Assembly: GCA_000961655.1 (NCBI GenBank)
Contig: LADR01000039.1
Span: 62,001-126,000, forward strand
DNA: 64,000 bases
Direction of reading: 5' to 3'
Source: Desulfatitalea sp. BRH_c12
GTDB lineage: Bacteria > Desulfobacterota > Desulfobacteria > Desulfobacterales > Desulfosarcinaceae
The notes under the pieces were generated by a model. It was not told where the DNA came from, did not search any database, and saw only the letters and a program-made list of their open reading frames with translations. This document shows positions 5,785-64,000 of the stretch, one piece after another (the stretch's first letter is position 1; each line of letters starts with the position of its first letter). A program made the translations under genes and the position numbers.

Positions 5785-6786
5785 TCAAATTCCGCGGAGG
5801 AAGGCGCTGCGGGCCTCGGCTTCCAGCACGTGGGCCATGCCTGTGTAGCGCGGGGAGTGATGAAAGATGCTCATCTGCTGGACACGTGCCTTACGGGCGA
5901 TCAAGCCGGCCTGGCGCGCCGTGAGGTGATATTTGGCTTCGGCAATGGTCCGTTCGCTGTCGAGAAAAGAGGCTTCGATGAAGAGAAGGTCGGCGTCCTG
6001 CGCCAGGGCGACGATCTTTTCCTCGTTGGACCGGCTGAAAACGGCATCGGTCACATACGCGATTTTCTGGCCGCGTGTGATGCGCGCGATTTTTTCGCTG
6101 AGCGCTCCCAGTGCAAAGGTCCGCGGCGACTGCTTTGTCAAGGGTACCGATACCTCAGTGGCCGGATCGGCACCCTCGAACAGCAATGCCTTGAAAGTGG
6201 CTATCCAGGGCCCGACCGCCAACCCGAGGGCATCCAGTTCAGCCTTGAGGATGTTGACATGGAAGCGTTCTTGCAGACGATAGGCCAGGCAGGGTATCTG
6301 GTGATCCAAGGTGGCGTACCGCACCTGCAAGGCCGGTTCCTGGTGCACGACATCGCCGCAGGCCGCGGCCACCTGCGCTTCAGAGGGGATGAACCCCGTC
6401 GAGCAGTCGAAAACCCGGGTGGTGCGCCGGTCCGCGTCGATCTCCGTGGCCGCGATGACCAGGGCTTCGTCGTAGTTTTGAACCAAATTCCATGTGTACC
6501 CGGCCAACTTGCCAGCCACATTGGCGAGGAACCCGTGCGGGCCATACAGGTGCAGCCGTTTTCCGCGGCCCAGCAACAGGCGCAGAATTCGGTCGAAACC
6601 GATGAAGTGGTCCACATGGGTATGGGTGATGAATATCCGCTGAACTTTGAGAAGATCGTTTGGCGCCAAGGCGCTCAGATCGCCCAGGTCGAAGAGCAAG
6701 GCTTGCTTGCGGAAAGTAAGATTGACCAACAGCCCAGGATCATCGAAAGGGCCGTTGATCATCCGGCATTGAAATGAAGGACGCAT
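5785..6786 (-). CDS. RNase Z-like metallo-beta-lactamase hydrolase
   Basis: 333 aa from the ATG at 6786, which has an AGAGGG site directly upstream; an in-frame ATG at 6834 would overlap the preceding gene by 37 bp. The HTHVDH motif (residues 55-60), a GxxxxxYVTDA segment, the YHLTARQAG block and HHSPRY near the C-terminus are the metal-binding motifs of the ElaC/RNase Z branch. RNase Z cleaves tRNA precursors 3' of the discriminator base. This protein is somewhat diverged, so another phosphodiesterase function is possible. Cytoplasmic, with no signal sequence. It follows a 139-aa unknown gene by 11 bp on the same strand. Confidence 0.75.
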   Translation of the reverse strand: MRPSFQCRMINGPFDDPGLLVNLTFRKQALLFDLGDLSALAPNDLLKVQRIFITHTHVDHFIGFDRILRLLLGRGKRLHLYGPHGFLANVAGKLAGYTWNLVQNYDEALVIAATEIDADRRTTRVFDCSTGFIPSEAQVAAACGDVVHQEPALQVRYATLDHQIPCLAYRLQERFHVNILKAELDALGLAVGPWIATFKALLFEGADPATEVSVPLTKQSPRTFALGALSEKIARITRGQKIAYVTDAVFSRSNEEKIVALAQDADLLFIEASFLDSERTIAEAKYHLTARQAGLIARKARVQQMSIFHHSPRYTGMAHVLEAEARSAFLRGI

Positions 6787-6797
6787 AACCCTCTGCG

Positions 6798-7217
6798 TCA
6801 GGGTAAAATCTTGTTTACCTGCTGGTTGATGCAACCATAAATTTCAAAATCGGAACCAAAGATATCTACCACCGATTTGTGATTGATCAGTTTTTCCAAC
6901 AAGAAGGCGGTTACATAGAGGCTGACCACATTCGGTTGCTGGACCACTTGACGGTACGGCGAAACCAGGTAATCGATATCGAAATCGTCGGCATGACAGA
7001 GCGTTTCCAGGCATTTGACGATTTGTTCTTCGAGACTGTTTTTATTGGTGGTCTCCACCAACTGATGTTCCACCAGCTTCGAGGCAATGGCGCCGCCAAG
7101 CGTCTCGACGTGCTCGCGTGCCGAGAGGATCGTCCGGCGTCGGGCATGCTCCTTCGACGACTCGATTTTTGACAGGATGCTTGACTCGCGATTGCTTGGT
7201 CGAAATACTTTCCCCAT
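6798..7217 (-). CDS. Conserved hypothetical protein, 139 aa
   Basis: I do not recognise this family. It is soluble, with no signal peptide or membrane segment. A basic N-terminal stretch (about residues 1-35) is followed by what looks like an all-helical body. Leu/Val-rich helices alternate with acidic patches (SLEEQIVKCLETL, DDFDIDYLV). The stop lies 11 bp before the RNase Z-like start, so the two are probably cotranscribed. Coding is supported by composition, spacing and an AAGGCGG site before the ATG. Confidence 0.6.
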   Translation of the reverse strand: MGKVFRPSNRESSILSKIESSKEHARRRTILSAREHVETLGGAIASKLVEHQLVETTNKNSLEEQIVKCLETLCHADDFDIDYLVSPYRQVVQQPNVVSLYVTAFLLEKLINHKSVVDIFGSDFEIYGCINQQVNKILP

Positions 7218-7410
7218 AGAACACCGCCTTACCCTTAAGTTTTAATCAATCGCACCTTCGCTGCGGTCGATTTCATTTTTCTTGTATCGTTTATCCCCGC
7301 CCATTAAAAAAACGGCATCATAATGATAAGTTTTTTGCTTTTCAAGCTAAAAGAATGGTGTCGCAGGCGATGCACCCATTTCCCTGCAGAAAAGGCAGGA
7401 CCCGGCCGGA

Positions 7411-9613: not shown

Positions 9614-11039
9614 AAAAATACATATCAACACGATGGGCTGCCAGATGAATGTATATGACTCCGGCCAGATTCTGAATCGTATGGCGCCGCTGGGGTACAC
9701 GCCCACCGAAGAGCTGGCTGAAGCGGACTTGATAATCGTCAATACCTGCGCGATTCGCGCCAAGGCGGAGCAAAAAGCGTTCAGTTTTCTGGGACGCCTG
9801 GCAACCCTCAAGGGCCTGAAACCTGAGCTGATCATTGGTATCGGCGGGTGCGTGGCGCAGCAGGAGGGCCGTAAAATCATGTCGCGCATGCCGTACGTGG
9901 ACCTGGTCTTCGGCACGCATGCCATCCCGCGCCTGCCGAGCATCATTGAGCGCATCACGGCCACGCGCTGCCGTATCGTGGATGTGAAGCAGGCGCCGAC
10001 ACTGGCGCCGGAAGACTTTACCACCGGCCCATTTACTGCCACCGATGTGTCGGCATTTGTGACCATCATGCGCGGCTGCGACAACTATTGCACCTATTGT
10101 GTCGTGCCGTACGTGCGCGGCCGTGAATCGAGCCGTCCGCCCGAGCAGGTTGTGTCCGAGATTCGCCACATGGTGGCGCATGGTGTCCGCGAAGTCACCC
10201 TGCTCGGCCAGAATGTGAACAGTTATGGCCAAAAAGAGGGGCTGTGCACATTCGACCAACTCCTGGCGATGATCGACGGGATCGACGGGTTGGAGCGCAT
10301 CCGTTTCACCACCTCACACCCCAAGGACCTGTCTCCGGCGTTGATGCAGGCTTTTGCGCAGCTGCCGAAATTGTGCCCGCATATCCATCTGCCCGTGCAG
10401 TCCGGCTCGGATGCGACCTTAAAACGCATGAACCGCCGCTACGACACCCGCCACTATATCGAGAAAGTGGCACGGCTGCGCCAGATCCGCCCCGATATTG
10501 CCATTACCTCGGATATTATCGTCGGTTTTCCGGGCGAAACCCAGGCCGACTTCGAAGCCACGCTGCAGTTGATCCGGCAGATCGGCTATGACGGGTTGTT
10601 TGCTTTCATCTATTCGGATCGTCCCAATGCCCCGGCTGCGCGGTTCGATGGCAAGCTGGATGAAGCGACCAAAAAAGAACGCCTGCAAGCCGTGCTGACC
10701 TGCCAGGAAACCTTCACGCTGCAAAAAAATAAAGCCCTCGTGGGCAGCGCACAGCAGGTCCTGGTCGACGGCCTGAGCAAGCATGTGAGCAATGAAAATG
10801 AAATGGATGAGCCCGTTTTAGACGCGCCATCGACGGGAGTGCAGTGGTCCGGCAGAACCGGTACCAATCGGATCGTGCATTTCCTCAATGAACCATCGGC
10901 GGATTCGGGGAATGAAATGTTGACAGGGCGTATATTGGAGCTCATGATAGAAAAAGCAATGCCGCACAGCCTTTGGGGACGGCTCACACCTCACCCCATC
11001 GGATCCTCCGGAAAAGGAGCGCACCCTTATGCTGCATAA
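9606..11039 (+). CDS. miaB: tRNA-2-methylthio-N6-dimethylallyladenosine synthase MiaB
   Basis: 477 aa from the ATG at 9606 (an ATG at 9594 is also in frame). The N-terminal UPF0004 domain has the three cluster cysteines C12, C48 and C82. The radical-SAM domain has C158-x3-C162-x2-C165 (CDNYCTYC), and a TRAM domain forms the C-terminus. MiaB methylthiolates i6A37 of tRNAs reading UNN codons with two 4Fe-4S clusters. The extreme C-terminus runs about 20 residues past the TRAM domain and overlaps the next gene by 11 bp. Confidence 0.93.
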   Translation: MTKKIHINTMGCQMNVYDSGQILNRMAPLGYTPTEELAEADLIIVNTCAIRAKAEQKAFSFLGRLATLKGLKPELIIGIGGCVAQQEGRKIMSRMPYVDLVFGTHAIPRLPSIIERITATRCRIVDVKQAPTLAPEDFTTGPFTATDVSAFVTIMRGCDNYCTYCVVPYVRGRESSRPPEQVVSEIRHMVAHGVREVTLLGQNVNSYGQKEGLCTFDQLLAMIDGIDGLERIRFTTSHPKDLSPALMQAFAQLPKLCPHIHLPVQSGSDATLKRMNRRYDTRHYIEKVARLRQIRPDIAITSDIIVGFPGETQADFEATLQLIRQIGYDGLFAFIYSDRPNAPAARFDGKLDEATKKERLQAVLTCQETFTLQKNKALVGSAQQVLVDGLSKHVSNENEMDEPVLDAPSTGVQWSGRTGTNRIVHFLNEPSADSGNEMLTGRILELMIEKAMPHSLWGRLTPHPIGSSGKGAHPYAA

Positions 11040-11526
11040 AGCCAATGTGGTGGGGCTGACCATGGACCCCACCTCGAATACACCGATCATCATTCTTAAG
11101 ACGGAAGCGGGCGATCAGGCCATCCCGATCTGGATCGGCCTCCTGGAAGCCACATCGATCGCTTCTGTGCTGCAGAATATACATTTCGAGCGGCCCATGA
11201 CGCACGACCTGTTCAAAAATTTCAGCGAACACCTCAATATCCAGGTGACCAAGGTGGAAGTATGCGACTTGCGTGACAATACCTTTTTCGCCATGATTCA
11301 TTTCGATGGCGATTCGCAATCGTTTACCTTGGATGCCCGTCCCAGCGACGCCATTGCCATCGCGCTGCGGTTCCGGGCGCCTATTTTCGTGGACCAGAAA
11401 GTCATCGAAAAATCCAAGCGCGGCGAAGGCGATGTCGAAGTGCTCGATCAAAGCGAAGAAGGAAAAAAATGGGCGGAGTACCTTGAAAATTTATCGCCCG
11501 AGGATTTCGGCAAGTACAAGGTCTGA
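11029..11526 (+). CDS. Bifunctional nuclease (BFN/DUF151) domain protein
   Basis: 165 aa. The N-terminal ~135 residues match the DUF151/BFN family: GLTMDPTSNTPIIILK, PIWIGLLEA and DARPSDAIAIALR are the conserved blocks. Some members in plants and Thermotoga have been characterised as DNA/RNA nucleases, but the bacterial role is mostly unknown. The acidic/basic tail (EGKKWAEYLENL) resembles the UVR-like tail seen in many members. GGAAAAGGAG precedes the ATG. It is the third gene of the DUF4911-miaB operon and converges on the M29 peptidase gene with only 13 bp between stops. Confidence 0.85.
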   Translation: MLHKANVVGLTMDPTSNTPIIILKTEAGDQAIPIWIGLLEATSIASVLQNIHFERPMTHDLFKNFSEHLNIQVTKVEVCDLRDNTFFAMIHFDGDSQSFTLDARPSDAIAIALRFRAPIFVDQKVIEKSKRGEGDVEVLDQSEEGKKWAEYLENLSPEDFGKYKV

Positions 11527-11539
11527 CGCCGCCCGCATC

Positions 11540-12739
11540 TCAATACTGGAACAAACCGTTCTCGTAAATCGTTGTCTTCCGGCCGCCGGGCAGGTGCGCC
11601 ACGACGCGTTTCTTCTCGGTATTGACCAGATCCCAATGCAGTGCTGAATCATTGAAGCCCAGCTTGCGTTTTGTGGCATTGTCCAGTTCCGCCAAGTCGC
11701 CAGCGTACGTATCCGCATAGGAAGAGCCCAGGGCAATGTGGCAGTTGCCCTGCGCGCCGCCGAAATTCTCGTCAAACAGGGTGTTGGCCATGAACCGGTC
11801 GATCTTGGAAAAACGCTTGTCGGTTAAAGAAAACTCACCGATCCGACTGGCGCCCCGGTCCATTATTGCTTGCTGCCGGATGAAGGCGGCCCCTTGCGCT
11901 GCATCGATCTGGACGGCAGTGCCTTTTCGGAAAACAATACGCACGTCTTTGACCAGATTCCCGCTTCGATACGATGGCAGGTTCGCATAATAAACCCCTT
12001 CGGTACCGCGCCAATCGGGGGAGAAAAAAACTTCGAAACTGGGGATGTTGTGGCCGGATATGCCGACCCAGCGGCGCTGGGCGCCCGGCGTGACCGTCAA
12101 ATCCATATGGGCCGATTCGATCTGCAGCCGGACGGGGGCCATGCTGTTGAGCCAGCCTTTAACTTCCTGGGCCTTCTTGAAAAGTGACCGCCACTGGGCG
12201 ACAGCATCACGTCGATGCAAACGGCAGGCTTTCACGATCTGATCGGTATAGTCGCGCAGGGTCATTTGGGCATGCTCAGCTTGCGCTGCCGTGGGCAGCA
12301 TGCACAAGGTCCACCCGAACAAACCGCGTGCATCGCGGTCATCCATGATATCGCGCAAGGGTTTGCGCGAAACCGCATGCCGACCGATTTTCTTGGGGTC
12401 GACCCGGCTCAGGTGGGTGATGGACTCGGGCGCGTGTAAAAAAATGGCGCCGTTTAAATGACGAAAGAGCTCTTCTTCGCCCGGGATCTGAAAGACCAGT
12501 TGCTTGGCATTGGCCAATTGAAAAAAATCCTGTTCCATCGTCGGGGTGGGATTCAAACGCAAAACAGGGTTGATGCCGGCATCCATGAGCCTGGCATGCA
12601 GGATCTCCGCCAGACGCAGGGCCAAAGGGTGAAAACGGACCAGAACGATATCGCCTTTTTTAAAACGCCCGTTGCGTGCCGTATGCAGTCCCCATAGCAA
12701 AACGTCCGCATAGCGCTCGAGCTGTATCTCACTCAACAT
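11540..12739 (-). CDS. M29-family aminopeptidase
   Basis: 399 aa, typical length for the thermophilic metalloprotease family (AmpS/PepS). Recognisable blocks are GHNIPSFEVFFSPDW with TEG, the IGEFSLTD...FMANTLFDEN region, GNCHIALGSSY, and the C-terminal ALHWDLV. These supply the Glu, His and Asp ligands of the two-metal site. The enzyme removes N-terminal residues from peptides in the cytoplasm. The gene stands alone on the minus strand; its upstream region contains the 12843-12939 inverted repeat. Confidence 0.88.
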   Translation of the reverse strand: MLSEIQLERYADVLLWGLHTARNGRFKKGDIVLVRFHPLALRLAEILHARLMDAGINPVLRLNPTPTMEQDFFQLANAKQLVFQIPGEEELFRHLNGAIFLHAPESITHLSRVDPKKIGRHAVSRKPLRDIMDDRDARGLFGWTLCMLPTAAQAEHAQMTLRDYTDQIVKACRLHRRDAVAQWRSLFKKAQEVKGWLNSMAPVRLQIESAHMDLTVTPGAQRRWVGISGHNIPSFEVFFSPDWRGTEGVYYANLPSYRSGNLVKDVRIVFRKGTAVQIDAAQGAAFIRQQAIMDRGASRIGEFSLTDKRFSKIDRFMANTLFDENFGGAQGNCHIALGSSYADTYAGDLAELDNATKRKLGFNDSALHWDLVNTEKKRVVAHLPGGRKTTIYENGLFQY

Positions 12740-12769
12740 GCTGAATTCCTCTTGATATCAAAGGTTTAG

Positions 12770-12939
12770 GTGTAGGTGTAGGTGTCAGGTGTCGGTATCC
12801 TGTCATTTGTATAGGCCCGCGCACTGGGTCACGATCACCCTTAGGGGCGAACCTTGTGTTCGCCCGAGTCCAACGCACGGGCATCTGAACAAAAACGCAC
12901 CCCCATGAAACGCACCGGGCGAACACAAGGTTCGCCCCT
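12770..12939. repeat. Short tandem repeats and a perfect 24-bp inverted repeat
   Basis: Bases 12770-12800 contain degenerate repeats of GTGTAG/GTGTC. Bases 12843-12866 and 12916-12939 are exact reverse complements (AGGGGCGAACCTTGTGTTCG and onward), 49 bp apart. The arms resemble those of the 63601-63742 pair (GGGGCGACC...GGTCGCCCC). This looks like a small REP-like or MITE-like unit rather than a gene. Confidence 0.7.
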
Positions 12940-13016
12940 GAAGCTTGAACGACGATTCCAGAACTATTCGCATGGCACATCCCGATTTTTTAAGAGATCA
13001 TCAAACTTATTTCTGT

Positions 13017-13274
13017 TTATGGATGATCTTCTTCTTTAAGGAAAAGACGGTGGTACTCGCCTTCTTCCAGATGCTTGCGCAGCAGATCGGACATGAGATC
13101 GAACAAGACGGTCAGTTCTTCATCTTCCAATCGCTTTATCAAAACCTGCATGAGTGCGTCGTCCGCGAATTTTTGAAGATAATAGACGACAGTATTTTCG
13201 TCGGTCTGGCGGTTAAGGCCGAAACCGACCATGCCCTGATATTTCTCCACAAAGGTGTGGGTATGTTGGGTCAT
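13017..13274 (-). CDS. Small conserved cytoplasmic protein, 85 aa
   Basis: MTQHTHTFVEKYQGMVGFGL begins a small soluble protein of the kind annotated only as 'cytoplasmic protein' in sulfate reducers. It is acidic (many Asp/Glu) and predicted helical, with the tail LRKHLEEGEYHRLFLKEED. No catalytic motif, signal or membrane segment is visible. It stands alone between repeat-bearing gaps. The function is unknown; coding is supported by composition and by family resemblance recalled from related genomes. Confidence 0.65.
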   Translation of the reverse strand: MTQHTHTFVEKYQGMVGFGLNRQTDENTVVYYLQKFADDALMQVLIKRLEDEELTVLFDLMSDLLRKHLEEGEYHRLFLKEEDHP

Positions 13275-13557
13275 TGCCGCTCCTATGAAATGATTGACAC
13301 CGGACCTCGTGACTCGCTATAGGCGAGGCCGGTGATTGCACCGGTATTGCAGTCGTGTGATGCAAGCCGGTTGCTGACGGAACGTACATACTTGAAATTT
13401 CGCGTGAAATCAACACATCGCGGAGGATGCACGCATGCTGCCCGCGATATTTGCACCTTTTGCAGGACCCTACCGCAAAAGCGTGTACCTATGAAGGAGC
13501 TAGGAAATTTAAAATTATAAGATCGTATGCGCACGGGCCGTTCCTCTTGCTTTGTGC

Positions 13558-13587
13558 TTGATTGAAGGAAAACAGTTGGTCTATAAG
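13558..13587 (+). promoter_or_regulatory. Sigma-70-like promoter for the LysM protein gene
   Basis: TTGATT (13558) and TATAAG (13582) separated by 18 bp, ending 55 bp before the ATG at 13643. The rest of the 368-bp gap 13275-13642 holds no gene I can support. Confidence 0.45.
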
Positions 13588-13642
13588 GAATCTTAACAAA
13601 TTGTGCTTCGGACGGATTATCCGGGCATCCTGGAGGTATGGC

Positions 13643-14302
13643 ATGAAATGGAAAGATTCAAATGAGATGAATGAGCCCGTGGAACAAAACAAGGAAGAAT
13701 ATTTTGACGAAGAACAGTATTCGCCCTGGACCAGGAACAAGGATGCCGCCCAATTCGGCCGGTTGCGTAAAATTCCGACTATGTTCATCCTGATCGGACT
13801 TGCCGTCGTGATATCGCTGGCTGCTTTACTGATGTTATTGCTCAGTACCCAAAAAGATCCCGCAAGCGACAAACAGATGGCTTTGCTGCAAGAAAAAATC
13901 AAACAACTGGAAGAACGCCTGGACAGGTACGAAGGTGTGGATGAAAAAGTGACCCGCATCTGGGAGCAAGCCAGGGCATTTGAAAAGTTCAAGGATCGTT
14001 TCGACCGCAGTGAAACTTCCATTATGCTGCGCATGGACCAGATGACCACCAGCCTGGAGTCGGTGCAAAAGCAGGTCGGCCAAATACGCAAGGCGCCGCC
14101 GGTTGTGTCCGCACCCGTCAAGGCCGCACCTGTCAAAGCCGAAAGCACTGCCGCAAGGAACCGTTTTCATACGGTTGAAGCCGGGGATACGTTGTACAGC
14201 ATCAGCAAGAAGTATGGCATCGAAGTAGACGATCTGCTCAAAATGAATCAGCTGGAGAAAGAGAGTATTCTTAAGCTGGGTCAGAAGTTGATCGTTCAAT
14301 GA
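13643..14302 (+). CDS. Membrane-anchored coiled-coil LysM protein
   Basis: 219 aa from the ATG at 13643, which follows GGAGG by 6 bases. A charged cytoplasmic N-terminus (1-43) precedes one transmembrane helix (about 44-67). Next is a coiled-coil stretch (about 75-150, with KIKQLEERLDRYEG), then an Ala/Pro/Val linker with repeated APVKA. A C-terminal LysM domain (about 176-219) begins HTVEAGDTLYSISKKYGI. LysM binds peptidoglycan glycan strands, so the protein probably tethers the inner membrane to the wall. Its specific role, perhaps in division or envelope organisation, is not evident. Confidence 0.85.
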   Translation: MKWKDSNEMNEPVEQNKEEYFDEEQYSPWTRNKDAAQFGRLRKIPTMFILIGLAVVISLAALLMLLLSTQKDPASDKQMALLQEKIKQLEERLDRYEGVDEKVTRIWEQARAFEKFKDRFDRSETSIMLRMDQMTTSLESVQKQVGQIRKAPPVVSAPVKAAPVKAESTAARNRFHTVEAGDTLYSISKKYGIEVDDLLKMNQLEKESILKLGQKLIVQ

Positions 14303-53367: not shown

Positions 53368-53907
53368 TCAGAGCGCCGGTGCCTGCTGTGGCGCGCCGAA
53401 CATGGCGAATACCAGGAACAGCACCAAGGCCTGCACGACCCATCCGATCAGACATACGCCCACGGCGCGCAGCGTACTGGAGTAATCCAGCGCCTCGCGG
53501 ACGGCGACCACCATGGCGGCCAGCATCCAGACGCCGGCGATAAAAAAGACGATCCCGGCAAGTCCGGGTATGATCCCCAGGACCCGCACGAGTCCGGGTG
53601 CGCTCGAAAAACCGATGGTGCGCAGCAATTGCCCATAGTCGGCCTGGGTCTGGGGTTGCGGCAGCAGTTTGGTACCGATGACGTAGGTCAGATAAGCCCA
53701 AAGTGCCCACCCCACAAGGGCGCCGACAATTCCAAAGACAAAACCGGACATCCCGCCTTGCGCCACCGCTCCGATACCGGCCGCAACACTTGCGAGCAGG
53801 ACCACCGCGATGGCTTGCCCCATTGCATTACGGTCGGCTTCGACCTCCCTGTACAACGCCGGCTGCAGCTTGGCAGCCCGGATCATTCGATCCACAAATG
53901 GATTCAT
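53368..53907 (-). CDS. YIP1-family membrane protein
   Basis: 179 aa from the ATG at 53907 behind AAGGAAGG. A soluble N-terminus with FVDRMIRAAKLQPALYREVEAD is followed by about five helices typical of the bacterial Yip1 domain (IAVVLLASVAAGIG, FVFGIVGALVGWALWAYLTYVIG). Function unknown. The C-terminus ends in a short Gln/Pro/Ala tail. Confidence 0.8.
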   Translation of the reverse strand: MNPFVDRMIRAAKLQPALYREVEADRNAMGQAIAVVLLASVAAGIGAVAQGGMSGFVFGIVGALVGWALWAYLTYVIGTKLLPQPQTQADYGQLLRTIGFSSAPGLVRVLGIIPGLAGIVFFIAGVWMLAAMVVAVREALDYSSTLRAVGVCLIGWVVQALVLFLVFAMFGAPQQAPAL

Positions 53908-54303: not shown

Positions 54304-55017
54304 ATGGACGCCAAACTGCATTTTGAAATCCAGAAACAGCCAGATGACATTACCTGCGGCCCGACCTGCCTGCAGGCGGTCTATAACTACTATGACGACA
54401 AAATTTCGCTTGCCCAGGTGATCCGGCAGGTCAAGCAAATAAAGGGCGGCGGGACCCTGGCCGTGCTCATGGGCTGCCATGCCCTGCAGCGGGGATACCG
54501 CGCCAAACTGTACACCTTCAATTTGCAGGTGTTCGATCCGACCTGGTTTAACCTGAGCACAGAAGATCTCAAGGACCGCCTGGTCCGTCAGATGCGCGTT
54601 AAAAAAAATCCCAAAATTCACGCGGCCACGCGCGCTTACCTCGATTTTTTGCGTCTGGGCGGGACCATCCGTTTCGAGGACCTGACCACCCAGTTGATCC
54701 GAGGTTTGCTCAAGCGGTCGATTCCCATTTTGACCGGGTTGTCGGCCACCTTCCTGTACCGTACGGCCCGCGAGATGGAAGTCGGCAACACATTGGTCTA
54801 CGACGACATTCGAGGGGAGCCCTCCGGCCACTTCGTGGTCCTGTGTGGTTACGACCTGACCCGGCGCTCTGCCCTGGTGGCCGATCCGCTGCTGCCCAAT
54901 CCGATCAGTCCGACTCAGATCTACTCGGTGCGCTTGAACCGGCTGATCTGTGCGATTATGTTGGGCATCCTGACTTATGATGCCAATTTGCTGATTATCA
55001 CCCCGCGCAAGGGGTGA
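54304..55017 (+). CDS. C39-like peptidase of the amidoligase operon
   Basis: 237 aa. The N-terminus carries Q12 and C18 in DDITCGPTC, then H176 (SGHFVVLCGYD) and D194 (VADPL), the Cys-His-Asp triad of a papain-like C39 peptidase. No transporter or membrane helix is attached, so it is a stand-alone cytoplasmic protease. C39 enzymes usually cut after double-Gly leaders, but here the neighbouring ATP-grasp and GCS2 genes suggest processing of a ligated peptide or amide. Ribosome site weak. Confidence 0.78.
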   Translation: MDAKLHFEIQKQPDDITCGPTCLQAVYNYYDDKISLAQVIRQVKQIKGGGTLAVLMGCHALQRGYRAKLYTFNLQVFDPTWFNLSTEDLKDRLVRQMRVKKNPKIHAATRAYLDFLRLGGTIRFEDLTTQLIRGLLKRSIPILTGLSATFLYRTAREMEVGNTLVYDDIRGEPSGHFVVLCGYDLTRRSALVADPLLPNPISPTQIYSVRLNRLICAIMLGILTYDANLLIITPRKG

Positions 55018-55056
55018 CATAAAGATCCGGCGCAGCCGGTCTAGGAGGAACTGCTT

Positions 55057-56520
55057 GTGACCGTTCTCGTGGTCATCGAAAACCCAGAAGAGTGTCCGCT
55101 TCAATTCGCCGGCGTCGAGCCGGTGGCTGCCCGAACCTACCTGTCCGATCCCTCTTTTTCGGGACTCAAGGGCGTCAAAGTCTTTAACATCTGCCGTTCG
55201 TACCGCTACCAGAGCATCGGCTACTATGTCAGTCTGCTCGCCGAGGCGCGCAACCACAAGCCGGTGCCCAACATCACGACCATTCAGGATATGAAATCGG
55301 TGGGCATCATCCGGCTGGTCTCGGAAGAGGTGTCGGAGATCCTGCAAAAGATCTTCACACCCGACGATCCCCAGAAGATGTCGATCACGATATACTTCGG
55401 CAAAAACCCCGATAAGCGCTTCGATCAGATTGCCTCGCGGTTGTTCAAATACTTTCCTGCGCCTTTTTTGCGGGCCGACTTCGCCTTCTACACGGATTGG
55501 CAACTGGTCAATGTCTCGCCCCTGGTGGTCAAAGAAATTCCCGTCGAGGAGCGCGGCTTTGCCGAAGCGGTGGCGAGCGAGTACTTCGCCGGCAAAAGAC
55601 TCTATATCCCCAAAAGGTCTGTCTCGCGCTATGACCTGGCCATCTTGTACGATCCCAACGAACAGCGTGCACCCTCCGATCCGCGGGCCCTTAAACGATT
55701 TGCCAAAGCCGCCGACGAATTGGAAATGGGCGTCGAACTGATCACCAAGGAGGACTCTAACCGGCTCTCTGAATTCGACGGACTCTTTATCCGTGAGACC
55801 ACCAATGTGGACCACCACACCTACCGCATGGCACGCAAGGCGGTGGCTGAAGGATTGGTGGTGATCGACGACCCGGAATCGATCCTGCGCTGTTCGAACA
55901 AGGTCTACCTGGCCGAACTGCTTGGCCGCTCACGCATCGGCATTCCCCAAACGCACATTATTCATAGCAAGAACCTTGAAACGCTCATGTCCGAGATCAG
56001 TTTTCCCTGCATCCTCAAACAGCCGGACAGCTCCTTTTCGCAGGGCGTGGTGCGCGCCAACGATGCCGCATCGTTGCTGGAACTGGCCCGGGGGCTGCTG
56101 AAGAAATCGGAGTTGGTGATCGCCCAGGAGTTTTTATTTTCCGAGTTCGACTGGCGCATCGGCATTCTGGACCGTAAACCGCTGTTCGCCTGCAAATACT
56201 ACATGTCCGGCAATCACTGGCAGATTGTGCGCAAGGACAAGGGCGGCCGGGAGGTGTACGGCAAGGTCGAGACGGTGCCGGTGGGCAAGGCGCCGTCGGC
56301 AGTGGTCAAAACGGCTCTCAAGGCGGCCAATCTCATCGGCGACGGTCTTTACGGGGTGGACCTCAAGCAAGTCGGCCGGTCGGTTTATGTCATCGAGGTC
56401 AATGACAACCCCAATATCGAAGCCGGGTATGAAGACGACGTGCTCCAGGATGAGCTTTATGTGCGCATCATGGAGGTTTTTCTCAAACGCATCGAAAGCC
56501 GCACATCGGGGAGTCGCTGA
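55057..56520 (+). CDS. RLAN-domain RimK-like ATP-grasp ligase
   Basis: 487 aa from a GTG behind AGGAGG. Residues 1-150 match the RLAN domain (RimK-like ATP-grasp N-terminal); 290-480 form the ATP-grasp fold with a KQPDSSFSQGV nucleotide loop, EFDWRIGIL and VIEVNDNPNIEAGYED, which holds the metal-binding Glu and Asn. RimK adds glutamates to a protein tail. The natural acceptor here is unknown. The gap to the peptidase gene is 39 bp and to the GCS2 gene 4 bp. Confidence 0.88.
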   Translation: MTVLVVIENPEECPLQFAGVEPVAARTYLSDPSFSGLKGVKVFNICRSYRYQSIGYYVSLLAEARNHKPVPNITTIQDMKSVGIIRLVSEEVSEILQKIFTPDDPQKMSITIYFGKNPDKRFDQIASRLFKYFPAPFLRADFAFYTDWQLVNVSPLVVKEIPVEERGFAEAVASEYFAGKRLYIPKRSVSRYDLAILYDPNEQRAPSDPRALKRFAKAADELEMGVELITKEDSNRLSEFDGLFIRETTNVDHHTYRMARKAVAEGLVVIDDPESILRCSNKVYLAELLGRSRIGIPQTHIIHSKNLETLMSEISFPCILKQPDSSFSQGVVRANDAASLLELARGLLKKSELVIAQEFLFSEFDWRIGILDRKPLFACKYYMSGNHWQIVRKDKGGREVYGKVETVPVGKAPSAVVKTALKAANLIGDGLYGVDLKQVGRSVYVIEVNDNPNIEAGYEDDVLQDELYVRIMEVFLKRIESRTSGSR

Positions 56521-56524
56521 TATC

Positions 56525-57760
56525 ATGTCATCCGAACCCTTGCATCTGTTCGAGGCCACCGGCATCGAACTGGAATATATGCTTGTCGACAACAGTACCC
56601 TGGCCGTGCTGCCGGCCGCCGACCAGGTGCTGGCGGCCGCGGCCGGCCAGATTGTCTCTGAGGTGGAACAAGGCCCGCTGGCCTGGTCGAACGAACTGGT
56701 GCTGCACGTGATCGAATTGAAAACCAACGGACCGGCGCCTGCGTTGGAAGGTCTGGCACCGATCTTCCAAGACCATATCCGGCGCATCAACGCCATACTG
56801 GCGCCACTGGGCGGCCGGCTCATGCCCACGGCCTGTCATCCCTGGATGGACCCTCTGACCGAGACCGTGCTCTGGCCGCACGAATACAGCCCGGTGTACG
56901 AAGCCTACGACCGCATTTTCGGATGCCGCGGTCACGGCTGGTCCAACCTGCAAAGCATGCACATCAATTTACCCTTTGCCGGGGACCTCGAGTTCGCCCG
57001 CCTGCATGCGGCGATCCGTTTTCTGCTGCCGATCATGCCGGCCCTGACAGCCAGTTCGCCCATCCTGGATGGCCGCCTGACCGGTCACCTGGACGCGCGC
57101 ATGGCGGTATATTGCCGCAATTCGGAGCGTATTCCGTCGGTGGCCGGCCGGATTGTCCCCGAACCGGTCTATACCCAAGAGGCTTACGCGCGTGAGATCT
57201 TCCAGCGCATGTATGCCGATATTGCGCCATTCGACCCGGCCGGCACGCTGCAGCACGAGTTCCTCAATGCGCGCGGCGCTATTGCGCGCTTTGAGCGCGG
57301 CGCTATCGAAATTCGGGTGCTGGACGTTCAGGAACACCCCGGCGCCGATCTGGCGGTCGCCTCTCTGATCATTGCCACGCTCGAGGCGCTCTGCGCGGAG
57401 CGGTGGCGCCCGCTGGCCGGAATCCGCGCAATCGACACCGCATGGCTGGCCGGTGTGTTTCAGAACGTCATCCGGGATGCGGACCGGGCGGTTATCGCTG
57501 ATCCGGTTTACCTGGGGGCCCTGGGGCTGACGGGCCGGCATACGGCCGGTGACATTTGGCAGTATTTGGCGCAGACCGTCTGGCCGGAGGCAGCGCGTGC
57601 TCCCGAGTTGATGCGACCGCTGGCCACGCTGCTCGACCGCGGCTGTCTGGCGGGCCGCATCCTGACAGCCCTGGGTGGCGATATCCGGCCATCCACGCTT
57701 TTCGACATCTATGCCGAGCTGTGCGTATGCCTGGCCCAAGGAGAGATGTTCCGTGGGTAG
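56525..57760 (+). CDS. GCS2-family carboxylate-amine ligase
   Basis: 411 aa from the ATG at 56525. The N-terminus FEATGIELEYMLVD, the WSNELVLHVIELKTNGP block, GWSNLQSMHINLPF and GAIEIRVLDVQE identify the glutamate-cysteine ligase type 2 (PF04107) fold, with acidic metal ligands on the first strands. YbdK-like members join glutamate to an amine, some weakly making gamma-glutamylcysteine. Partners suggest a peptide or glutamyl amide here. Its stop overlaps the next start by 8 bases. Confidence 0.87.
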   Translation: MSSEPLHLFEATGIELEYMLVDNSTLAVLPAADQVLAAAAGQIVSEVEQGPLAWSNELVLHVIELKTNGPAPALEGLAPIFQDHIRRINAILAPLGGRLMPTACHPWMDPLTETVLWPHEYSPVYEAYDRIFGCRGHGWSNLQSMHINLPFAGDLEFARLHAAIRFLLPIMPALTASSPILDGRLTGHLDARMAVYCRNSERIPSVAGRIVPEPVYTQEAYAREIFQRMYADIAPFDPAGTLQHEFLNARGAIARFERGAIEIRVLDVQEHPGADLAVASLIIATLEALCAERWRPLAGIRAIDTAWLAGVFQNVIRDADRAVIADPVYLGALGLTGRHTAGDIWQYLAQTVWPEAARAPELMRPLATLLDRGCLAGRILTALGGDIRPSTLFDIYAELCVCLAQGEMFRG

Positions 57761-58472
57761 CGACCGGGTGCTGGTGATCTCCTGCGAACATGGCGGCCAC
57801 ACCATCCCGGCGCCCTATCGTGCGCTGTTCGAATCCCAGCGCGATAAGTTGATCACCCACTGCAGCTTGGATCTGGGCGCCCTGGGCGTGGCCCGTCGGA
57901 TGGCGACGCATTTCCAGGCGTCGCTTTTTGCGGCCGTCACCTCGCGCCTGCTGGTGGACCTGAACCGTACCATCGGCCATCCCCGGCTCTTTTCCGCCAT
58001 TACGCGTTCGCTGCCGGCCGAAGAGAAGCGGCGTATCCTGAAAAGGCATTATGTGCCGCACCGCGTCGCCATCGAAGATACCGTGCGCCGGCACATCGAT
58101 GCCGGACAGACGGTGGTTCACATTGCCTGTCACAGCTTTACGCCCGTGCTGGATGGCCGTGTGCGCAGCATGGATGTGGGGCTGCTCTACGATCCCGCCC
58201 GCAGGCAAGAACATCGCCTGTGCGCGGCCTGGAAAAAAGCGCTTGCCGACCACGATCCGGCCCTTACGGTGCGGCGTAATTCGCCCTACAAAGGCATCTC
58301 CGACGGTTTGGCCACTCACTTCCGGAAGATCTTCGCGCCAAGTTATCTTGGCATCGAACTTGAAATGAACCAGCAGCATTTGGACAACAAGCTGCGCTGG
58401 CGGGAATTGACCGACGCCGTTGTGGCGTCTCTGCAAATCGCCTTGCAAAGACGCAATGGTCGAAATGCATAA
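57753..58472 (+). CDS. N-formylglutamate amidohydrolase-like protein
   Basis: 239 aa from the GTG at 57753, with AAGGAG 9 bases upstream, inside the end of the GCS2 gene. The N-terminus ISCEHGGHTIP and the HIACHSFTP and GIELEMNQ blocks match the PF05013 zinc amidohydrolase family. Family members cleave N-formylglutamate or similar amides. Together with the ligases, it may trim or recycle the pathway product. It ends the operon; repeats follow at 58535. Confidence 0.85.
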   Translation: MGSDRVLVISCEHGGHTIPAPYRALFESQRDKLITHCSLDLGALGVARRMATHFQASLFAAVTSRLLVDLNRTIGHPRLFSAITRSLPAEEKRRILKRHYVPHRVAIEDTVRRHIDAGQTVVHIACHSFTPVLDGRVRSMDVGLLYDPARRQEHRLCAAWKKALADHDPALTVRRNSPYKGISDGLATHFRKIFAPSYLGIELEMNQQHLDNKLRWRELTDAVVASLQIALQRRNGRNA

Positions 58473-58534
58473 ACCAATGCAAACAGAAGAGCTGCTTGCA
58501 GCGGCCAAAGGGCGTCCGGAACTGACCGCCCAGC

Positions 58535-58710
58535 TGTAGGGTGGGCATTGCCCACCACTGTTCACCGCAAACAACATCTTCGGTTTCTGACACTGATCCC
58601 GCCTAAGCGATTGGATAGACACCGGATCGAGCATAGCGATGAAACGTTGAATACGGCCAATTACAGAGGCGATCAACATTAGACAAATGGTGGGCGATGC
58701 CCACCCTGCT
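58535..58710. repeat. Repeat unit with GTAGGGTGGGC ends, copy 1
   Basis: Starts TGTAGGGTGGGCATTGCCCACC and ends near GGTGGGCGATGCCCACC. The interior includes GATGAAACGTTGAATACGGC and ACAGAGGCGATCAACATTAG. A shorter copy is at 59039 and an inverted one at 63933. It is a REP-like, mobile-looking unit without an open frame. Confidence 0.8.
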
Positions 58711-58773
58711 GGGCTTCCCGAGATGGAAGGGGCCTCCTTAATGGCCATATAGTTGGATACCCCGGCGGAGAAA

Positions 58774-58994: not shown

Positions 58995-59185
58995 TTTGGC
59001 GCGCCATGTCAGCCATGAGATTTTAGTGTGGCAATAAGCTGTAGGGTGGGCATTGCCCACCATTATTCCTGACACTGATCCCGCCCAAGCGCTTGGATAA
59101 GCACAGGAAGAACATAGCGATGAAGCGTTGGATAAGGCCAATCACGGAGCGACATTAGACAAATGGTGGGCAATGCCCACACTAC
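58995..59185. repeat. Half palindromic element followed by REP-like copy 2
   Basis: 58995-59038 matches the left arm of the palindromic element (GTCAGCCATGAGATTTTAGT). It stops abruptly, and TGTAGGGTGGGCATTGCCC begins at 59040, a second copy of the 58535 unit that ends near 59185 with GGTGGGCAATGCCCAC. The junction suggests one unit inserted into another. Confidence 0.75.
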
Positions 59186-59302
59186 TGGGCTTGCCGACCA
59201 AATTCGGGGCGCACCAATCCAAAAGCATCGATAAAGCAGATATCACGATTGCGCGTCCAACAACTTTGCGCTGCTTGTTGACGCGAGACCTTTTTGATTT
59301 AT

Positions 59303-61356: not shown

Positions 61357-62391
61357 ATGCAGTACGATTTGTTGAAACAGCTGAGCGATATGCCGGGGGT
61401 GTCCGGCCGAGAGGAGCGCGTGCGCGAGTGGCTGTCGGGACAATTGGCCAATCGGGCCACTGGCATGACCACTGACGCCATGGGCAGCCTGATTGTCCAC
61501 ATTCCAGGCCTTGGCCCACGCGTGGCGCTGATCGCCCATATGGATGAAATCGGTTTTCTGGTCAGCAAAATCGAACCTGAAGGATTTGTCCGGGTGATGC
61601 CGGTGGGCGGCGTCGATGCGCGGGTGTTTGGCGCCCAGCAGGTCATCGTGCACGGCCGCCGGGACTTGCCCGGGCTGGTTGGCAGCATTCCGCCCCACCT
61701 GCTCAAAAAGGGCGACGGCGCGGACAACAAGGCGGCCTTGTCCATCGAAGAGAGTTTCATCGATCTGGGTCTGCCGGCCGACGCAGTCATGCAAGCGGTC
61801 GCCGTGGGGGATCCCGTCACCTTTGCCAGCGTCAGCTGGCACAACGACCATGTTTTCTGCGGCAAGGCCCTCGATGACCGGATAGGGCTGTTCGTCATGC
61901 TGGCCGCCCTTGGCCAGGCTCAAAAAATCGACGCCGATCTTTTTCTGATCGCCTCGACCCAGGAAGAGGTCGGGCTGCGTGGGGCGGGACCGGCCGTGTT
62001 TTCAACCCAGCCGCACATTGTGCTTGCTTTGGAAGGCACCGTCGCATCGGATACGCCTGGCTTGAAACTGCCTCCGAACACCCTTGCGACATGCCAGGGC
62101 AAAGGACCCGAGATCCGGCTCAGCGATCGCGGCATGCTCTCCAACCGCAAGCTGGCCGATTTTCTGATCGGACTTGCGGCAAGCGCCGATATCCCCCATC
62201 AGGTGATTGTCAAAAACACCGGTTCCACCGATGCCGCGGCCGGTCAGATTGCCGGCGCCGGCGCACGGGTGTGCACCGTCTCGGTACCCGTACGTTACAT
62301 CCACGCCCCGGCCGGCATGGCGCGCAAAGCGGATATCACGCATACGGTTCAGCTGATCACGGCTTTTCTGGAACATGCATCCGAAGCCTGA
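61357..62391 (+). CDS. M42-family aminopeptidase/endoglucanase-type metallopeptidase
   Basis: 344 aa from the ATG at 61357, with AAAGGAG 8 bases before. Metal ligand motifs are H61-x-D63 (AHMDEIGF), ALDDRIG, and STQEEVGLRGA, which supplies the two Glu residues of the cocatalytic site. The N-terminus LLKQLSDMPGVSGREERVRE is characteristic. M42 enzymes form large tetrahedral shells that remove N-terminal residues from peptides in the cytoplasm. Confidence 0.92.
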   Translation: MQYDLLKQLSDMPGVSGREERVREWLSGQLANRATGMTTDAMGSLIVHIPGLGPRVALIAHMDEIGFLVSKIEPEGFVRVMPVGGVDARVFGAQQVIVHGRRDLPGLVGSIPPHLLKKGDGADNKAALSIEESFIDLGLPADAVMQAVAVGDPVTFASVSWHNDHVFCGKALDDRIGLFVMLAALGQAQKIDADLFLIASTQEEVGLRGAGPAVFSTQPHIVLALEGTVASDTPGLKLPPNTLATCQGKGPEIRLSDRGMLSNRKLADFLIGLAASADIPHQVIVKNTGSTDAAAGQIAGAGARVCTVSVPVRYIHAPAGMARKADITHTVQLITAFLEHASEA

Positions 62392-63843: not shown

Positions 63844-64000
63844 GGTGGGCAATGCCCACCCTACATTCGGGTTGGCACGGAGGAGGTGAGCCGGGCGGGT
63901 GGTCTGCGACGTCAGCCATGAGATTTAGCCAGGTAGGGTGGGCATCGCCCACCATTGTCTTATGCCGATCGCCTCTGTGATTGAGGTATTCAACGTTTCA
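63844..64000. repeat. REP-like ends around a partial palindromic element (runs off the window)
   Basis: GGTGGGCAATGCCCACCCTAC (63844-63864) faces GTAGGGTGGGCATCGCCCACC (63933 on). Between them, 63868-63930 is the left part of the palindromic element (GAGGAGGTGAGCCGGGCGGG, GTCAGCCATGAGATTTAG). From 63933 to the edge the sequence matches the 58535 unit in reverse (GATCGCCTCTGTGATTG, TATTCAACGTTTCA). It continues beyond the window. Confidence 0.78.

Follow-up and report, generated by a model that had tools for sequence, protein, structure and literature searches.

A four-gene operon around an RLAN-RimK ligase in Desulfatitalea: gene content, distribution and a tentative pathway

The locus and its four proteins

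In the stretch of the Desulfatitalea sp. BRH_c12 genome analysed here (64,000 nt, positions 62,001 to 126,000 of contig LADR01000039.1, hereafter the window), four open reading frames lie on the forward strand between positions 54304 and 58472, separated in the ORF list of the window by successive gaps of 39, 4 and -8 bp. The most upstream (54304-55017) encodes a C39-like (papain-fold) cysteine peptidase of 237 aa, matching Pfam PF13529 (Peptidase_C39_2) at 2.4e-8; it is followed by a gene (55057-56520) for a 487 aa RLAN-RimK ATP-grasp ligase, with Pfam matches to RLAN (1.1e-43, residues 25-169) and RimK (4.9e-11). The third gene (56525-57760) encodes a divergent GCS2-family carboxylate-amine ligase of 411 aa (Pfam GCS2, 1.7e-25), and the fourth (57753-58472), which begins with a GTG codon and overlaps the GCS2 gene by 8 bp, a 239 aa FGase-family (N-formylglutamate amidohydrolase-like) hydrolase (Pfam FGase, 6.3e-24). 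The coordinates, spacing and family assignments of the first-pass annotation were all reproduced by the ORF check and Pfam searches; its statement that the catalytic residues are retained also holds, as the C39, ATP-grasp, GCS2 and FGase motifs are invariant in aligned relatives.

No Rfam family matched at gathering scores between positions 53500 and 60000, and promoter and terminator scans yielded no more than about what is expected by chance. Five proteins were scanned against the PADLOC models of anti-phage defence, none of which matched. The 1.2 kb gap that follows the operon contains a duplicated, partly rearranged repeat module (58532-58721 and 59037-59197), the pieces of which are 85-94% alike. 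A 17 bp REP-like palindrome, GGTGGGCAWTGCCCACC, lies 3' of the operon at 58540-58556, 58689-58705, 59045-59061, 59165-59181, 63844-63860 and 63937-63953, and occurs at 171 exact places genome-wide, against none for the reversed control.

The RLAN domain occupies approximately residues 25-169 of the ligase, with the RimK-like part behind it; the protein belongs to the RLAN-RimK ligases on the basis of both PF14401 (148.9 bits, cut-off 25) and PF08443 (43 bits, cut-off 21). Amongst aligned rows having a residue at the position, E447 is the same in 122/122 and N449 in 123/123, and relatives named Desulfatitalea are 81-84% identical to the window ligase. A profile search of the PDB aligned residues 238-460, approximately, to RimK and LysX chains. 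Likewise, the closest Foldseek matches of the predicted model (pLDDT 85.5, pTM 0.61) include RimK (7qys, 7.3e-17), LysX (3vpd), ArgX (3vpb) and 5k2m, all 50 of the matches listed being RimK, LysX/ArgX or D-Ala-D-Ala ligase chains. Hence, as modelled, the C-terminal part of the protein resembles RimK, LysX and ArgX, and the N-terminal domain is left unexplained. The ligase scores far below the cut-offs of the NCBIfam equivalog for the ribosomal S6 glutamate ligase RimK (NF007764, 23.6 versus 331 bits) and of the LysX model (57.9 versus 275.6).

Residues Q12, C18, H176 and D194 of the C39 protein are invariant in all 35 aligned sequences, the window protein included; Q12 is presumably at the usual oxyanion position. 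Membership of the C39-like papain-fold peptidases is indicated by the PF13529 score (35.1 bits, cut-off 24), by the triad and by the fold: the AlphaFold2 model (pLDDT 93.8) most closely matches the C39-like peptidase 3erv and PCAT1 peptidase domains in Foldseek, with the phytochelatin synthase 2bu3 ranked lower at 9.5e-4. An assignment as a double-glycine bacteriocin peptidase does not fit a stand-alone protein of 237 aa with neither an exporter nor a small ORF recurring nearby. Inspection by eye revealed no signal peptide.

E15, E17 and E57 of the GCS2 protein are shared by all 24 aligned sequences, and C11-E12-H13 and H127 of the FGase-family protein by all 36; we take these to be catalytic or metal residues of their respective families. 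The GCS2 protein is a member of the Pfam family, and it matches ten NCBIfam ligase models, every one below its cut-off. These include the glutamate-cysteine ligase and YbdK subfamilies, to which it consequently cannot be assigned (TIGR02050, 55.4 versus 176.4 bits; TIGR02048, 28.6 versus 249.05; EgtA, 17.9 versus 370.8), and its sequence is too distant from solved or characterised ligases for a donor to be assigned. The hydrolase had been named N-formylglutamate amidohydrolase. The Pfam FGase family stands; the named enzyme does not, with no NCBIfam model matching at an E value of 0.01 and the structure bearing that name, 2q7s, scoring 13.5 bits. The nearest solved relative of the hydrolase is 2odf (81.3 bits), a hypothetical protein.

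Distribution and genomic neighbourhood

A contig search with the window RLAN protein gave 565 confirmed relatives, 80 of which were analysed; these were picked by similarity to the window ligase, and hence lean towards the GCS2-bearing gene arrangement of the window (variant B below). Thirteen loci were set aside for their short flanks, leaving 67 with 1 kb or more of upstream and 1.5 kb or more of downstream sequence. C39 and GCS2 genes lie within 3.5 kb of the RLAN gene in 64 of these 67 loci, accompanied by an FGase gene in 47; a further 16 have C39 and GCS2 alone, one has the same pair together with a GNAT gene on the opposite strand (L106), two have C39 only and one has none of them. Of the 57 loci whose downstream sequence extends to 3.2 kb or more, 42 contain FGase. 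Every C39, GCS2 and FGase gene found in the 67 loci shares the strand of the RLAN gene, and the adjacency is far beyond chance. Loci combining C39, RLAN and GCS2 span 15 phylum labels, and those with all four genes nine of them, these labels being taken from record titles, three of which lack one and some of which are doubtful (e.g. metagenome-assembled genomes titled Deltaproteobacteria were counted as Myxococcota). Gaps between -60 and +100 bp separate 116 of 122 C39-RLAN pairs, 73 of 78 GCS2-FGase pairs and 83 of 120 RLAN-GCS2 pairs, the distance not being measurable in 20 of the last, presumably where GCS2 frames run open into the RLAN gene. The first-pass annotation had regarded the four genes as a single operon, a view at odds with adjacency confined to this one genome; the 64 of 67 loci with C39 and GCS2 show it to be conserved far more widely. 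The neighbourhood count it had proposed found the four families together in 47 of 67 loci.

Searches for PF14401 independent of gene neighbours found the domain in 13 of 97 relatives, comprising nine of 11 in the genus, none of 19 elsewhere in the family and four of 67 elsewhere in the order. Across the phylum it was present in 18 of 395 genomes (completeness 80%). It was found in 74 of 323 genomes in the class, presumably Gammaproteobacteria in GTDB, of a genome titled Thiobacillus, and in 62 of 244 in the phylum of one titled Pirellulaceae (completeness 90% in both). None of the 14 control genomes in each survey had it. One locus (L142, G309:C6:2000-14500) looks like a decaying copy: its RLAN gene is interrupted by a stop or frameshift, and C39 was not found nearby. 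Two records filed as plasmids look chromosomal: NZ_LR134436.1, a 9 kb record carrying fur, bamE and dapF, and NZ_AP026896.1, which is 4.9 Mb long.

From these surveys 88 loci were hand-picked, roughly as alternate rows (16 of the 18 from the phylum, the other two being already available, 40 of the 74 from the Thiobacillus class and 32 of the 62 planctomycete ones); some, such as L269 and L106, also belong to the sample of 80 relatives. All-against-all clustering of RLAN neighbours, with genes called by a home-made codon score, found no constant fifth gene: the largest cluster is mixed and spans 15 of 88 loci at varied distances and on both strands, and the others are smaller. Of the 66 tight same-strand neighbours listed, 60 were searched against Pfam; the commonest families matched three each, with no recurrent transporter, exporter, regulator or catabolic gene. 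Similarly, amongst 9604 small ORFs at 176 loci no candidate precursor peptide emerged, the widest cluster reaching five loci. The earlier remark that the operon includes no substrate, transporter or regulator gene is therefore borne out by both the Pfam matches of the tight neighbours and the clustering of small ORFs. At a single locus (L041) a citrate/arsenite-type transporter and an MscS-type channel (6021-7265 and 10715-14233) lie directly beside the operon, an arrangement that does not recur.

Two gene settings of the RLAN ligase

The first-pass annotation overlooked a sister variant that has a RimI-like GNAT instead of GCS2. In variant B, the type found in the window, C39 and GCS2 lie beside the RLAN gene, often with the FGase-family hydrolase; in variant A, represented by an Azospirillum locus (L016) and many Thiobacillus-class loci, a homologous RLAN ligase that shares the key residues is accompanied by this GNAT and by no FGase hydrolase, the GNAT usually being fused to a C39-like DUF3335 domain, such that the peptidase-like component is shared. 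The phylum sample (16 loci) contains eight four-gene loci, five with C39 and GCS2, one with GCS2 and FGase lacking C39, and two with GNAT only. The Thiobacillus-class sample (40) is made up of 25 loci with GNAT and DUF3335, six with GNAT only, seven four-gene loci, one with C39 only and one with none. On the GCS2 side the planctomycete sample (32) has 14 four-gene loci, nine with C39 and GCS2, one such pair with an opposite-strand GNAT and one RLAN-GCS2 fusion, the remainder being three with GNAT and DUF3335, two with GNAT only and two with none. Over all 88 loci GNAT is present in 39 and GCS2 in 46, both in one and neither in four (Fisher p 3e-19, with kinship ignored); the two variants are thus largely exclusive settings.

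DUF3335 shares an ORF with the GNAT in all 28 loci that have it, which represent 28 of the 36 variant A loci in two surveys. No C39-like domain was found in the other eight, so the peptidase is not always needed. When the variant B C39 protein is aligned with the variant A DUF3335 domain, the Cys, His and Asp coincide (hhalign probability 96.2). An FGase gene near RLAN in the absence of GCS2 was not seen in any locus scanned. The proposal that the two hydrolases jointly trim or remove a ligated chain is therefore not supported as a single scheme, C39 being common to both variants and FGase seen solely with GCS2. The control genome of Methanosarcina acetivorans has DUF3335 and no RLAN.

Ten of the eleven ligase positions checked, amongst them K282, K321, Q357, D435, E447 and N449, are identical in every variant A row (40, counting L106, a B-type locus with an opposite-strand GNAT) and every variant B row (82 or 83) having the residue. 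The other, D324, is conserved in 34 of 40 A and 81 of 83 B rows, and by the thresholds used Q52 is the single column separating B from A. Since ten positions agree and only one column separates the variants, the reaction catalysed by the RLAN ligase is probably shared by both. Both pairings also exist as single chains: GNAT-RLAN-RimK in L270 (654 aa) and L029 (649 aa), and RLAN-RimK-GCS2 in L271 (1022 aa). The GNAT exceeds the TIGR01575 (RimI) cut-off in three of six GNAT-bearing proteins scanned, and this RimI-like character makes a peptide-type amine the probable target of capping. What we take to be the acyl-CoA motif is present in 40 of 43 GNATs near RLAN.

Unconstrained trees of the ligases imply four changes between A and B. 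One of the changes in one of these trees is spurious, as row L106, labelled A, has the same sequence as row L269, labelled B, near which a GNAT gene lies on the opposite strand. In an AU test the tree placing all 28 GNAT-type rows in one clade was not rejected, and even scored higher (p 0.70). We therefore make no claim of repeated exchanges between the variants; judging from these trees one ancient split may account for their exclusion, so that the Fisher p value overstates the independent evidence.

Related systems and candidate functions

The available part of a later paper (PMC4431377) credits Iyer et al. 2009 with observing ATP-grasp ligase genes in operons together with genes for COOH-NH2 ligases or GNATs. 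The accessible portion of another (PMC10318531), citing the same work, describes frequent fusions of DUF3335 to GNAT domains, for which it considers peptide ligation or acetylation possible. Hence this kind of operon was probably predicted already in 2009. The literature reached, in which Iyer et al. 2009 was represented by such citations rather than by its full text, yielded neither a description of the four-gene operon nor an assigned product for a four-enzyme set that, with conserved active sites, recurs as a unit across many phyla.

In the synthesis of N-acetylglutaminylglutamine amide (NAGGN), GNAT and ATP-grasp domains are joined in one chain, which the fused proteins of L270 and L029 resemble; TIGR03103 matches their GNAT part weakly, but the five matching proteins reach just 20.6-36 bits against a cut-off of 569. 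This model matches no window protein, the window operon contains no asparagine-synthetase-like partner, and none was present amongst the 25 commonest neighbour families listed; an assignment to the NAGGN pathway is accordingly not supported. The amino-group carrier pathway of LysX and ArgX supplies some of the closest solved ligase folds (3vpd, 3vpb and 5k2m), but the neighbourhood of the operon has no recurrent small carrier protein and, as noted, the LysX model falls below its cut-off. The RimK/RimB system serves the poly-glutamylation of S6. In the available part of PMC12239564, RimK is described as acting on proteins, and RimK/RimB and Rlo likewise each combine an ATP-grasp ligase with a peptidase. 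RimK also provides the nearest solved fold; the window operon differs in its extra RLAN domain, in having C39 rather than a retropepsin, in the added GCS2 and FGase genes and in the low RimK equivalog score.

The reading that we prefer, with a probability of about 0.4, is that the operon is a self-contained cytoplasmic pathway for a small N-capped, amino-acid-extended, probably glutamate-rich peptide. The RLAN ligase would activate a carboxylate with ATP and add an amino acid, most likely glutamate in view of its RimK, LysX and ArgX relatives, whilst GCS2 would cap an amine on the same intermediate by glutamyl ligation, the position held by the RimI-like N-acetyltransferase in the sister variant. 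The C39 peptidase would cleave a peptide precursor or trim the product, and the FGase-family hydrolase would cut an N-acyl-glutamate-type bond, in the GCS2 branch only, for turnover or release. We infer the cytoplasmic location, the substrates, the order of the steps, the glutamate donor and the role of each hydrolase, as we do the principle that the ligase would extend, and a second enzyme cap, the same peptide-like substrate. If this cap-and-extend scheme is true, the product would be a common and so far unrecognised metabolite or tag, RLAN being present in 74/323 and 62/244 genomes of the two large groups sampled. A comparison of the two variants then makes the scheme testable, as ligases of one type would be expected to encounter an acetylated substrate in variant A and a glutamylated one in variant B.

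We lean towards a metabolite over a protein end because free amino acids are the substrates of characterised GCS2 enzymes; a protein target fits equally well in that RimI and RimK both act on proteins. In such a tagging system C39 would trim a host protein, RLAN would extend its C-terminus with amino acids in the manner of RimK on S6, GCS2 or the GNAT would cap an N-terminus or a side chain, and FGase or C39 would erase the mark. The nearest folds are those of the S6 ligase RimK and the carrier-protein ligases LysX and ArgX, the variant A GNAT resembles a protein N-terminal acetyltransferase, no dedicated substrate gene recurs, as expected for a ubiquitous host target, and the RLAN ligase has the highest mean column identity of the four proteins (64% versus 59, 53 and 44%, from samples that are not identical). 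Set against the substrates of characterised GCS2 enzymes, and the absence of RLAN from most genomes of each sampled group, which would make the mark dispensable, we consider protein tagging possible yet rather doubtful. A bolder proposal, and an unlikely one, would place RLAN at the constant centre of a single, broad modification system whose caps can be exchanged: acetyl in variant A (RimI-like GNAT) and glutamyl in variant B (GCS2), with a dedicated FGase-family hydrolase able to reverse the glutamyl cap. Its target would be a common peptide or host protein, modified at the trimmed end, in around one in four of the gammaproteobacterial and planctomycete genomes sampled.

The two hydrolases, one from a family named for N-formylglutamate hydrolysis, could instead point to a catabolic or salvage cassette degrading glutamyl amides or peptides, with the ligases recycling glutamate; the presence of two ligases that consume ATP and have conserved active sites, together with the lack of recurrent transporters or catabolic genes amongst the tight neighbours, makes this very improbable. 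Hardly any weight is given to a RiPP-type system in which C39 removes the leader from a ribosomal precursor modified by RLAN and GCS2: C39 peptidase-transporters are listed amongst the families associated with ATP-grasp RiPP loci (available part of PMC8939145), but the small-ORF clusters span at most five of 176 loci and no exporter recurs amongst tight neighbours. A thiol pathway akin to those of glutathione and phytochelatin, in which GCS2 would correspond to GshA, the RLAN ATP-grasp to GshB and C39 to a phytochelatin-synthase-like transpeptidase, appears improbable. Pairing GCS2 with an ATP-grasp enzyme is the logic of glutathione synthesis, and the C39 model does match the glutathione-acylated phytochelatin synthase 2bu3; however, C39-like and double-glycine peptidases outrank it, the glutamate-cysteine ligase models remain below cut-off, and GNAT replaces GCS2 in variant A. 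A role as a glutathione substitute is also weakened by the distribution of PF02955, the glutathione synthetase ATP-grasp domain, which was found in 11 of 15 operon-bearing genomes searched, with no match in four, such that the operon neither replaces nor requires glutathione synthetase. Matches are strong (E <1e-50) in G002, G003/G486, G481, G489 and the window's own genome, the last of which has two, at G000:C26:78152-78685 (3.3e-53) and G000:C24:161558-162094 (2.4e-52).
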